Part shown: piece by piece, positions 40,154 to 41,816 of the stretch
Layout: each line of letters begins with the position of its first letter
How positions within the stretch are numbered: the stretch's first letter is position 1
NCBI RefSeq assembly: GCF_032302195.1
Contig: NZ_CP135275.1
Location: 4,774,001 to 4,838,000, forward strand
DNA length: 64,000 bases
DNA from: Paenibacillus sp. MMS20-IR301
GTDB taxonomy: Bacteria; Bacillota; Bacilli; Paenibacillales; Paenibacillaceae
Direction: 5' to 3'
Notes under the pieces: model-generated
Databases searched by the model: none
The model's input: the letters and a program-made list of their open reading frames with translations, nothing else
Told to the model about the DNA's origin: nothing
Translations under genes and position numbers: made by a program

Positions 40154-40274
40154 AAAGAAGAAAAGATGGCGCGCCCTAAGAGATACGGATGCTACGCACC
40201 CGATTGCGAAGTTATTCTATCGAAGCGGATGCTCCAACGAACTCGTTCGAATCTTGAGGACACTTTGGATATTC
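40154..40274 (-). repeat. tRNA-Arg 3'-end duplication with 90-bp insert
   Basis: A second copy of the tRNA-Arg 3' end (40154-40184) matches 40275-40305 for 31 bases without a mismatch: 13 bases of trailer, CCA, acceptor strand and the 3' half of the T-stem. Between the copies lie 90 bases (40185-40274) that share GATTGCGAAGT and GATGCTCCAACGAAC with the inserts behind tRNA-Asp, -Glu and -Ser. This is the most diverged of the four inserts. Confidence 0.88.
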
Positions 40275-40287
40275 AAAGAAGAAAAGA

Positions 40288-40364
40288 TGGCGCGCCCTAA
40301 GAGATTCGAACTCCTGACCTTTTGATTCGTAGTCAAACGCTCTATCCAGCTGAGCTAAGGGCGC
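40288..40364 (-). tRNA. tRNA-Arg(ACG)
   Basis: 77 nt with encoded CCA. Acceptor GCGCCCT/AGGGCGC, anticodon loop CTACGAA, T-arm GGAGTTCGAATCTC. The adenosine at the wobble position would be deaminated to inosine. Its 3' end is duplicated downstream. Confidence 0.95.
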
Positions 40365-40374
40365 AAAATCTATA

Positions 40375-40449
40375 TGGAGCGGACGACGGGAATCGAACCC
40401 GCGACCCTCGCCTTGGCAAGGCGATGCTCTACCGCTGAGCCACGTCCGC
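40375..40449 (-). tRNA. tRNA-Gly(GCC)
   Basis: 75 nt with encoded CCA. Acceptor GCGGACG/CGTCCGC, anticodon loop TTGCCAA, T-loop GGGTTCGATTCCC. Confidence 0.95.
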
Positions 40450-40456
40450 AAAAACA

Positions 40457-40540
40457 TGGTGCGCGTGAAGGGACTTGAACCCCCACGTCGTGAAACGCCA
40501 GATCCTAAGTCTGGTGCGTCTGCCATTCCGCCACACGCGC
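40457..40540 (-). tRNA. tRNA-Leu(TAG)
   Basis: 84 nt with encoded CCA and a class II variable arm (GGCGTTTCACGACGT). Acceptor GCGCGTG/CACGCGC, anticodon loop CTTAGGA. Confidence 0.94.
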
Positions 40541-40557
40541 ACACTTTACAAGGAAAA

Positions 40558-40633
40558 TGGTGAGCCATGAAGGACTCGAACCTTCGACACCCTGATTAAA
40601 AGTCAGGTGCTCTACCAACTGAGCTAATGGCTC
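40558..40633 (-). tRNA. tRNA-Lys(TTT)
   Basis: 76 nt with encoded CCA. Acceptor GAGCCAT/ATGGCTC, anticodon loop CTTTTAA, T-loop GGTTCGAGTCC. Confidence 0.95.
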
Positions 40634-40640
40634 GCATATA

Positions 40641-40697
40641 AGGGGTCCCCGAAAAGTAATCGGATTAACCTTCTAAGCTTAACTTCACTTTTTGGGG
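40641..40697. repeat. GGGGTCCCC hairpin element between tRNA-Lys and tRNA-Gln
   Basis: AGGGGTCCCCGAAAAGTAAT, CGGATTAACC, TTCTAAGCTTAA, then CTTCACTTTTTGGGG. It is a member of the family also seen at 41072, 41231 and 42237 and, in reverse sense, at 13357-13538. The ends (GGGG...AAAGT / ACTTT..GGGG) and the inner GCTTAGAAGG-type arm give it stem potential. Confidence 0.8.
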
Positions 40698-40702
40698 TGA
40701 AG

Positions 40703-40777
40703 TGGCTGGGGATATAGGATTTGAACCTATGCATGACGGAGTCAAAGTCCGTTGCCTTACCGCTTGGCTAATCCCCA
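40703..40777 (-). tRNA. tRNA-Gln(TTG)
   Basis: 75 nt with encoded CCA. Acceptor TGGGGAT/ATCCCCA, anticodon loop CTTTGAC, T-loop GGTTCAAATCC. Confidence 0.95.
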
Positions 40778-40866
40778 ATAATATAATTAGCATAACCTAC
40801 GGAATAGGATGGATACTCTATACTTCGAGATATAGGATGCACAATTCCTAATACCTTTATGCCATG

Positions 40867-40980
40867 AAGATGGCGGAACCGACGGGATACTCTTCACTTC
40901 GTTACGAGATTGCGATGTAGTGCTAACGAAGCTTATGCTTCAACGAACCCTTAAATGGAATCTCATCCCTGAAGCAGATA
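40867..40980 (-). repeat. tRNA-Asp 3'-end duplication with 92-bp insert
   Basis: 40867-40888 repeats 40981-41002 exactly over 22 bases (trailer, CCA, acceptor strand and 3' T-stem of tRNA-Asp). The insert 40889-40980 starts ACTCTTCACTTCGTTACGAG and contains AACGAAGCTTATGCTTCAAC and ATCTCATCCC. The GGGAT at the end of the duplicated T-stem can pair with ATCCC at 40965-40969. Confidence 0.92.
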
Positions 40981-40984
40981 AAGA

Positions 40985-41062
40985 TGGCGGAACCGACGGG
41001 ATTCGAACCCGCGATCTCCTGCGTGACAGGCAGGCATGTTAGGCCAACTACACCACGGTTCC
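40985..41062 (-). tRNA. tRNA-Asp(GTC)
   Basis: 78 nt with encoded CCA. Acceptor GGAACCG/CGGTTCC, anticodon loop CTGTCAC, T-arm GCGGGTTCGAATCCCGT. Its 3' end is duplicated downstream. Confidence 0.95.
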
Positions 41063-41071
41063 AAGTTTGGT

Positions 41072-41132
41072 ACTTTGGGGTCCCCGGAAAGTATTCGGAA
41101 TATGCTACAAAGCATCTCTTCACTTTGTGGGG
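41072..41132. repeat. GGGGTCCCC hairpin element between tRNA-Asp and tRNA-fMet
   Basis: ACTTTGGGGTCCCCGGAAAG, TATTCGGAAT, ATGCTACAAAGCAT, then CTCTTCACTTTGTGGGG. Very similar to the next copy at 41231; the inner ATGCTACAAAGCAT is a small hairpin. Confidence 0.85.
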
Positions 41133-41134
41133 AT

Positions 41135-41211
41135 TGGTTGCGGGGGCAGGATTTGAACCTGCGGCCTTCGGGTTATGAGCCCGACGAGCTACCGGGCTGC
41201 TCCACCCCGCG
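41135..41211 (-). tRNA. Initiator tRNA-fMet(CAT)
   Basis: 77 nt with encoded CCA. Acceptor CGCGGGG/CCCCGCA with the unpaired C1-A72 of initiators, three G-C pairs next to the anticodon loop (GGGCTCATAACCC). Confidence 0.95.
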
Positions 41212-41230
41212 TCAGTAAAAATATTGTCCC

Positions 41231-41289
41231 TTGGGGTCCCCGGAAAGTACCCGGAATCCTCTGCGAAGTCTTTGCTTCACTTTGTGGGG
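41231..41289. repeat. GGGGTCCCC hairpin element between tRNA-fMet and tRNA-Val
   Basis: TTGGGGTCCCCGGAAAGTAC, CCGGAATCCTCTGCGAAG and TTGCTTCACTTTGTGGGG. Differs from the 41072 copy mainly in the centre, where a GCGAAGTCTTTGC hairpin replaces ATGCTACAAAGCAT. Confidence 0.85.
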
Positions 41290-41297
41290 AATGTGTA

Positions 41298-41373
41298 TGG
41301 TGGAGGCTGAGGGGTTCGAACCCCCGACCCTCTGCTTGTAAGGCAGATGCTCTCCCAGCTGAGCTAAGCCTCC
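41298..41373 (-). tRNA. tRNA-Val(TAC)
   Basis: 76 nt with encoded CCA. Acceptor GGAGGCT/AGCCTCC, anticodon loop CTTACAA, T-loop GGGTTCGAACCCC. Confidence 0.95.
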
Positions 41374-41396
41374 ATGAGATATATCATTAAAATAAA

Positions 41397-41510
41397 TGGT
41401 GACTCGTATGGGATACTCTTCACTTCGTTACGAGATTGCGAAGTATTCCTACCGAAGCCGATGCTTCAACGAACCCAGGGAATTCTCATCCCATAAATCG
41501 AAGAAGATAT
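41397..41510 (-). repeat. tRNA-Glu 3'-end duplication with 96-bp insert
   Basis: 41397-41414 repeats 41511-41528 over 18 bases (CCA, acceptor strand and 3' T-stem of tRNA-Glu). The insert 41415-41510 shares its first 34 bases (from ACTCTTCACTTCGTTACGAG) with the Asp copy. Here the pairing between the duplicated T-stem (TATGGGAT) and the insert (ATCCCATA, 41488-41495) extends to eight bases, matching this tRNA specifically. Confidence 0.92.
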
Positions 41511-41585
41511 TGGTGACTCGTATGGGATTCGAACCCATGTTACCTCCGTGAAAGGGAGGTGTCTTAACCCCTTGACCAACGAGCC
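41511..41585 (-). tRNA. tRNA-Glu(TTC)
   Basis: 75 nt with encoded CCA. Acceptor GGCTCGT/ACGAGTC (one G-T pair), anticodon loop CTTTCAC, T-arm ATGGGTTCGAATCCCAT. Its 3' end is duplicated downstream. Confidence 0.95.
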
Positions 41586-41609
41586 ATAATGTTTGTTTCT
41601 AAAAGTACT

Positions 41610-41722
41610 GCTACGGAGAGAGAGGGATACTCTTCACTTCGTTACGAGATTGCGATGTATTGCTAACGAAGCTTATGCTCCAACGAACCACTGAGGGTTC
41701 TCATCCCTTACAAGGAAGCAAA
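41610..41722 (-). repeat. tRNA-Ser 3'-end duplication with 94-bp insert
   Basis: 41610-41628 repeats 41723-41741 over 19 bases (short trailer, discriminator, acceptor strand and 3' T-stem of tRNA-Ser). The insert 41629-41722 again begins ACTCTTCACTTCGTTACGAG and has TAACGAAGCTTATGCTCCAA and TTCTCATCCC (41699-41707), able to pair with the duplicated AGGGAT. Confidence 0.92.
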
Positions 41723-41726
41723 GCTA

Positions 41727-41816
41727 CGGAGAGAGAGGGATTCGAACCCTCGAGACGCTTGTGGCGCCTACACGATTTCCAATCGTGCTCCTTCGGCCAA
41801 ACTCGGACACCTCTCC
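41727..41816 (-). tRNA. tRNA-Ser(GGA)
   Basis: 90 nt, class II with a long variable arm (GGCGCCACAAGCGTC). Acceptor GGAGAGG/TCTCTCC, anticodon loop TTGGAAA. CCA is not encoded. Its 3' end is duplicated downstream. Confidence 0.94.

Follow-up and report, generated by a model that had tools for sequence, protein, structure and literature searches.

In the genome of Paenibacillus sp. MMS20-IR301, four of the 14 tRNA genes in the window (the whole stretch analysed, 64,000 nucleotides, positions 4774001–4838000 of a 7.69-Mb single-contig genome) are each followed by a small cassette that ends in a second copy of the 3' end of the same tRNA. The reading that we favour, with moderate confidence, is that these are rtT-like tRNA-tail cassettes: structured RNAs co-transcribed with the tRNA, on DNA that is unstable and occasionally mobile, with a function and an insertion mechanism that we infer.

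All 14 tRNA genes are on the minus strand, 3' of an rRNA operon in the direction of transcription. Behind tRNA-Arg, -Asp, -Glu and -Ser, the order described in the initial annotation (a tRNA, an insert of 90–96 bp, and a repeat of the tRNA's own 3' end of 31, 22, 18 or 19 bp) was reproduced to the base when the 14 tRNAs were re-measured (Table 1). The exact repeat begins at T-loop residue 59 in all four copies, just past the TTCGA loop, as had been proposed. The inserts are related to each other in the way described there, with a 20-mer present in the Asp, Glu and Ser inserts and a diverged Arg insert. The other ten tRNAs lack the arrangement, again as described: their longest matches are 7–16 bp and none of the ten starts at residue 59, while tRNA 3'-end queries against 2555 random 400-nt windows, used as a control, gave matches of at most 11 bp. 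The 16-bp match of tRNA-Val falls inside a different hairpin repeat, and the 13-bp match of tRNA-Gly-gcc is the T-arm of the other tRNA-Gly. No Rfam family was found over the four inserts at its gathering score.

Table 1. Host tRNA genes, inserts and second 3' ends in the window (window positions; R1 is a model built from eight copies of this genome).
Feature	Positions	Strand	Basis and remarks
tRNA-Arg(acg), host of copy 1	40288..40364	-	ARAGORN
Insert 1, diverged Arg-type body, 90 bp	40185..40274	-	Re-measured; R1 match 40178-40257, 60.1 bits
Second copy of tRNA-Arg 3' end, 31 bp exact	40154..40184	-	Re-measured; first copy 40275-40305
tRNA-Asp(gtc), host of copy 2	40985..41062	-	ARAGORN
Insert 2, 92 bp	40889..40980	-	Re-measured; R1 match 40882-40969, 99.1 bits
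Second copy of tRNA-Asp 3' end, 22 bp exact	40867..40888	-	Re-measured; first copy 40981-41002
tRNA-Glu(ttc), host of copy 3	41511..41585	-	ARAGORN
Insert 3, 96 bp	41415..41510	-	Re-measured; R1 match 41408-41492, 95.4 bits
Second copy of tRNA-Glu 3' end, 18 bp exact	41397..41414	-	Re-measured; first copy 41511-41528
tRNA-Ser(gga), host of copy 4	41726..41817	-	ARAGORN
Insert 4, 94 bp	41629..41722	-	Re-measured; R1 match 41622-41707, 103.7 bits; insert and tail together give a weak full-length RtT match (RF00391, 17.4 bits, chance level by itself; model 1-130)
Second copy of tRNA-Ser 3' end, 19 bp exact	41610..41628	-	Re-measured; first copy 41723-41741

We pooled 270 matches from this and other genomes (72 and 144 aligned, with 37 of 47 and 17 of 24 from two more searches, the dropped matches being weak, truncated or duplicates). 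Removal of re-finds and identical units left 225 copies with a same-strand tRNA upstream, and these have nine host isoacceptors: Asp (54 copies), Ser-gct (36), Arg-tct (32), Glu (32), Arg-acg (19), Ser-tga (19), Ser-gga (17), Ser-cga (11), and Gly-gcc (5). A tail from the copy's own tRNA, defined as at most two mismatches in the first 14 nt, is present in 185 of the 225; tails are poorer in the other 40, among them 22 that come after the first unit of an array. In 184 of the 185 copies, identity begins at residue 59 on the left. On the right, it stops anywhere between -4 and +55 nt relative to the tRNA end among the 139 exact first copies, and runs past that end in 111 of them. By hand count, 12 further distinct copies have no usable upstream tRNA: ten begin less than 234 nt from where the fetched stretch ends, one (L184) was missed by the T-loop pattern, and one (L204) is a real orphan.

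Sequence comparison gives a common layout. On the strand of its host tRNA and 3' of it, a cassette opens with a short leader, followed by a 5' arm (GGGAT in the commonest form), then the conserved body (UGAGAA ... GGUUCG ... hairpins ... GU), and finally the host tail from residue 59. The 5' arm was located in 153 distinct cases; it is GGGAT facing ATCCC in 87, and at least four of the five positions pair in 125. Matched changes are found on the two sides: ATCTC tails face NAGAT arms in 14 cases, and a GGAGT arm stands opposite an ACTCC tail in one. The Ser-tga and Ser-cga cassettes of genome G037 have 11-bp arms, and the one-position difference between these arms mirrors the difference between their tRNAs. 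Beyond the arm core, the own tail is preferred by 93 of the 153 arms. A universal match between arm and own tail was rejected. The preference is strong for Arg-tct (19/20), Arg-acg (18/18) and Ser-cga (7/8), weak or absent for Asp (20/34), Glu (12/18) and Ser-tga (8/14), and not seen for Ser-gga (3/12), Ser-gct (5/27) and Gly (1/2), with the Ser-gga and Ser-gct arms fitting foreign tails better.

The predicted fold has a closing helix, P1, formed by the arm and the copied tail, and three further hairpins. In an alignment of 18 sequences made without structure, the covariation score is 0.302 against 0.158 (sd 0.016) in shuffled alignments and the number of doubly changed cells is 17 against 4.6, values reached by none of 500 shuffles, with the caveat that the structure was predicted on the same alignment as was tested, which favours the structure. 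Paired cells amount to 94.4 per cent, compared with 35–60 per cent when the structure is slid along the alignment, and this value too is reached by 0 of 500 shuffles. Two weaker covariation measures are reached by 30 and 74 of the 500 shuffles, and the slid controls are lower on all five measures. Covariation of the four predicted helices thus supports an RNA module, an option that the initial annotation had offered.

The initial annotation knew of no named family with this structure. In this it was mistaken: the E. coli rtT RNA (RF00391) has the same plan, though the window copies miss its curated threshold. The RtT family, known from tyrT/tyrV, with a 178-bp tyrT repeat, and also from behind tRNA-Pro in Salmonella and E. 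coli, resembles the cassettes in its position directly 3' of a tRNA, in its tandem units, in its end, which is a copy of the 3' end of that tRNA from residue 58/59, in a 5' arm that pairs with the tail, and in a terminator that can sit inside the unit. The motifs GGAUGAGAA, GGUUCG and GAGU are common to both, as is the closing stem. The cassettes differ from RtT in their middle hairpins, in their phylum, and in their host tRNAs (Asp, Glu, Ser, Arg and Gly), and the window Ser copy, to which the whole RtT model aligns, scores 17.4 bits against a gathering score of 45 bits, a value that would by itself be at chance level. Among 40 relatives, the best RF00391 score is 28.7 bits (G037). Five RtT matches were listed there, and four of these correspond to tRNA-Ser(tga) cassettes of G037 and G030. 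The remaining match, in G021 (L126), has no adjacent tRNA and looks like chance. The match is reciprocal: when model R2, built from 18 copies and no E. coli sequence, was run on a 2-kb locus of MG1655, the four rtT copies ranked 1–4 (15.5, 14.6, 11.3 and 11.0 bits; the next match had 3.1). The narrower R1 found none of the E. coli rtT copies. On these resemblances of sequence and position, the cassettes look like a distant relative of E. coli rtT RNA. RefSeq annotates rtT RNA as 'processed from tyrT transcript'.

Other known systems are less similar. The sX4 family (RF02223) gives a match that runs over the 3' end of tRNA-Ser and the cassette's start, GGGAUGAGA, but it scores 30.8 bits against a gathering score of 70 and is largely the tRNA part; seven sX4 turned up during tRNA sequence analysis, according to a passage of PMC11124144. 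Like REP/BIME and MITE-like stem-loop repeats, the cassettes are small, structured, and present or absent; unlike them, the sampled copies lie behind tRNAs in a single orientation with a host-specific tail, with one orphan (the L204 copy). Extracts from the literature on rtT report rtT-like sequences inside enterobacterial BIMEs (PMC2965389), a tandem GA motif in RtT (PMC7657543), the removal of tRNA-related clusters (PMC2267715), and copy-number variation of rtT in Salmonella (PMC2658671). Passages of PMC4986893 already place RtT behind many tRNA operons, with RtT expression, and describe release of rtT RNA from the tRNA transcript in relatives. Passages of related open-access literature gave no description of the Bacilli copies, an absence that is weak evidence.

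DNA and model searches of the same genome located further copies behind tRNA-Asp (in a second tRNA cluster), Ser(gct), and Arg(acg) (in another cluster). Additionally, two tRNA-Arg(tct) genes carry five and three full tandem copies with a period of 142–143 bp, and the repeated unit of the five-copy array includes a terminator-like hairpin. The tRNA-Glu of the second cluster and the tRNA-Asp of a third are insert-free; the second cluster is partly N in the fetched stretch. A search of Paenibacillus genomes, which the initial annotation had suggested, gave R1 matches in 73 of the 81 genomes searched in the genus. Within the order, R2 matches occur in 160 of 296 genomes, spread over 16 of 48 genera. 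Phylum-wide, R1 matched two of 199 genomes (this genome among them), and class-wide R2 at E ≤ 0.01 matched 35 of 299 genomes, ten of them outside the order; filters were stricter, at the cost of weak matches, whenever more than 40 genomes were searched. In a model-free scan of 20 class-wide loci, a second tail is present in 12, one of them inside the order (L262) and 11 outside it in G540, G549 and G534. These three are the sole confirmed genomes outside the order, with the second tail 91–160 nt behind Ser, Arg, Asp or Glu tRNAs. The eight weaker R2 matches (L254–L261) had no second tail in the model-free scan, and we regard them as unconfirmed. A blastn search with the window copy against plasmids and phages gave no match. 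The whole tRNA cluster, used as a query, hit 3271 phage records; the first ten listed are partial-query matches and, in annotated records, coincide with tRNA genes.

Empty sites, the check proposed in the initial annotation, exist in relatives at orthologous positions. The regulator gene that neighbours the window cluster has Paenibacillus species as its nearest named relatives. In orthologous clusters beside the same regulator, the window included, the Ser site is filled in 3 of 11, Glu in 4 of 13, Asp in 5 of 14, and Arg in 6 of 16. Paenibacillus agri (locus L092) has no R1 match in its genome, compared with two, both behind Asp, in the genome of L098, and the Asp sites of these two loci differ by one clean unit. 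L095 has a truncated 5' half at its Ser site, as does L101 at its Asp site. From such comparisons, cassettes appear to come and go between related species and strains.

The annotation had also argued for repeated insertion, since each repeat is specific to its own tRNA, and this claim holds in part. In a tree of 176 distinct bodies, which is weak in detail because the bodies are ~70 nt long, 38 isoacceptor changes are needed, compared with 116 on shuffled labels (minimum 107 of 200 shuffles). Because bodies mostly track their own isoacceptor, inheritance, loss and change in tandem number explain much of the pattern; the history of the bodies would be mostly one of inheritance with the tRNA, and most apparent movement may be inheritance plus loss. 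Some bodies have nevertheless jumped: the Asp cassettes L038, L033 and L015 have Asp tails and bodies 93–98.6 per cent identical to Glu bodies of other genomes (L020 and L017). Movement between different tRNAs bears out the view that plain segmental duplication is not the explanation. In these cases of Glu-type bodies behind Asp, donor and recipient are in different genomes.

Enterobacterial rtT sites also vary. A Salmonella record has two RtT units behind tRNA-Pro, with the Pro tail and the trailer repeated. Of the E. coli tRNA-Pro alleles read, one is filled and three are reduced; the reduced alleles keep the 5' half of the element and are therefore loss alleles. In the lysT operon of strain 104, a cassette follows the first tRNA-Lys and none follows the second or third, the reverse of strain E62, in which the first is empty and the second and third are filled; strains 09-02E and N66 also have the first tRNA-Lys without a cassette. 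The first site gives a clean filled and empty pair: in the filled allele, the second tail is followed by the trailer native to the empty one. Filled-state queries were covered to at least 80 per cent at the Lys sites in 3639, 4108 and 4029 of 5426 E. coli genomes and at the Pro site in 2658 of 5426, counts that are approximate, as coverage joins pieces, and that do not distinguish gain from loss. In five of six E. coli cassettes tested, the own tail is the best fit to the arm, the exception being Pro. One of the six (L303) has a tail that we take to be from tRNA-Arg; its fetched stretch contains an IS4-family gene ~180 bp upstream.

How the cassettes arose and persist can be explained in several other ways. 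Integrases use the 3' part of tRNA genes, and the cassettes could be small non-autonomous elements moved by a tyrosine recombinase acting at the T-loop or 3' end, with the direct repeats as att sites, as the initial annotation proposed. The repeats do fall in this part of the gene, as in tyrosine-recombinase islands, and empty sites exist. However, an integrase crossover in the T-loop does not fit the near-invariant limit at residue 59: TTCGA is absent from the second copy, and the leftward extension of identity into the loop is 0 in all but one of the copies with own tails. The variable right end of the repeat also speaks against it, and related bodies with different tails would need a separate att core for each. 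Unlike such islands, the cassettes are ~90 bp without an integrase and combine one body type with many tails. No full-size element with an integrase came up among the loci examined, and we regard this origin as very improbable. Gene conversion and unequal exchange among tRNA copies, with an immobile body, would fit the tandem arrays. They would also fit the Glu tRNAs, which encode CCA where they precede a cassette, as against downstream copies in L088 and L119 that are the CCA-less end of empty sites, and genome G042, in which the 3' strand of tRNA-Asp resembles a diverged decoy tail. These processes leave unexplained the Glu-type bodies with Asp tails and the presence of related bodies behind nine isoacceptors, and we consider them an unlikely explanation of the whole. 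Retroposition or template switching primed at the tRNA tail, in which a cassette RNA or strand anneals through its AUCCC tail to the T-stem of another tRNA gene, is copied in, and acquires the tail of the new tRNA, would account for the residue-59 limit, the variable right end, the fixed orientation, and the change of tail on a new host. But no insertion event was seen, and a reverse transcriptase as the mover was rejected: an RVT_1 match is present in 12 of 18 genomes with cassettes and in three of six without, no association in the 24 genomes tested. G060, G048, G078, G037, G030 and G032 have cassettes and no RVT_1, and G022 has seven RVT_1 matches and no cassette. We rate this route as quite unlikely.

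The alternative that we take most seriously, possible while still on the unlikely side, is a regulatory or decoy RNA of benefit to the host (a processing sponge or a starvation-response sRNA) that is inherited with the tRNA and repeatedly lost. Sequence and structure are conserved, bodies follow the isoacceptor, and most genomes searched in the genus have a match. According to PMC4986893, rtT is a modulator of the stringent response and RtT is found in at least 80 per cent of the Pasteurellaceae species examined, a near-universal occurrence that speaks for function over selfishness. Against a benefit stand the different subsets of sites filled in close species, the differences among E. coli strains (full length at tRNA-Pro in 2658 of 5426 genomes), the P. 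agri genome without an R1 match, and the truncated copies.

Under the favoured reading as rtT-like tRNA-tail cassettes, the cassettes would be transcribed within the tRNA precursor. Since the cassette follows an intact tRNA and itself terminates in a genuine tRNA tail, the usual 3' processing of tRNAs would split the two, as is reported for rtT in E. coli, so that insertion would be tolerated. The direct repeats would allow units to expand and drop out by slippage or recombination, and occasionally a body would reach another isoacceptor and acquire the tail of its new host. The DNA would then behave like a tolerated, mostly selfish hitchhiker, with a possible cellular role for the released RNA. 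A bolder version, which we put forward tentatively and consider doubtful, is that these are cross-phylum minimal mobile elements dedicated to tRNA tails: they would insert at the T-loop limit 58/59 with tail duplication, primed by annealing of the AUCCC tail to a new T-stem, carry a host-matched 5' arm in some classes, leave the tRNA intact, and be released by tRNA processing.

A known RNA family already has this plan; the novelty lies in the phylum, in which tRNAs act as hosts, and in the filled and empty sites recorded. Our analysis extends this architecture to nine isoacceptors in Bacilli, where the tail changes with the host tRNA, and documents orthologous sites with and without a cassette, among them three tRNA-Lys genes in a single E. 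coli operon whose state differs between strains. Together they make up a set for comparison and a tractable system in which to ask what such RNAs are: regulators, by-products of processing, or mobile elements.

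The gene that adjoins the tRNA cluster encodes a product that, from its sequence, reads like a DNA-binding regulator, and its position beside the cluster is common to Paenibacillus relatives. Among the E. coli loci fetched, the rtT-like copy in GPEC1031 (L298) is immediately preceded by an IS3-family gene, and the copy in GPEC1054 (L303) is preceded, at about 180 bp, by an IS4-family gene.

Coordinates of the features discussed in this section
Feature	Location	Strand	Remarks
Putative DNA-binding regulator gene	window 38656-39606	minus	adjoins tRNA cluster
Short hairpin, GGAATTGTGCATCC...TATAGAGTATCC	window about 40780-40862	minus	Asp-Gln spacer
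Second repeated hairpin, GGGGTCCCCGGAAAGTA...CTTCACTTTGTGGGG	window about 40640-40705, 41075-41133, 41232-41290, 42238-42296
Orphan cassette	L204 (G039), 883-991		Arg-like tail
tRNA-Asp of L131	G042:C7, 1032-1110

The hairpin in the Asp-Gln spacer has close relatives at the same spacer in most sequences of the comparison set (orthologous clusters of Paenibacillus relatives beside the same regulator gene, window included), and it looks like an older cassette that has collapsed. Copies of the second hairpin are located between tRNA and rRNA genes, and an Rfam search returned no match to this element at gathering score.

No tRNA was found in the 882 nt examined upstream of the orphan cassette. 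On a 50-kb E. coli record (NZ_CP098226.1), 46 bp at 20289-20334 (H56) match the body of the Lys-type cassette, at a site without an annotated feature. rtT-like sequences distant from tRNAs are reported in PMC2965389.

In the tRNA-Asp of L131, the 3' acceptor strand resembles the diverged decoy tail (CCTGTTCC), the downstream copy of a tRNA 3' end that closes a cassette, and is now mismatched with the 5' strand, as if the tRNA had been overwritten by the decoy through exchange.
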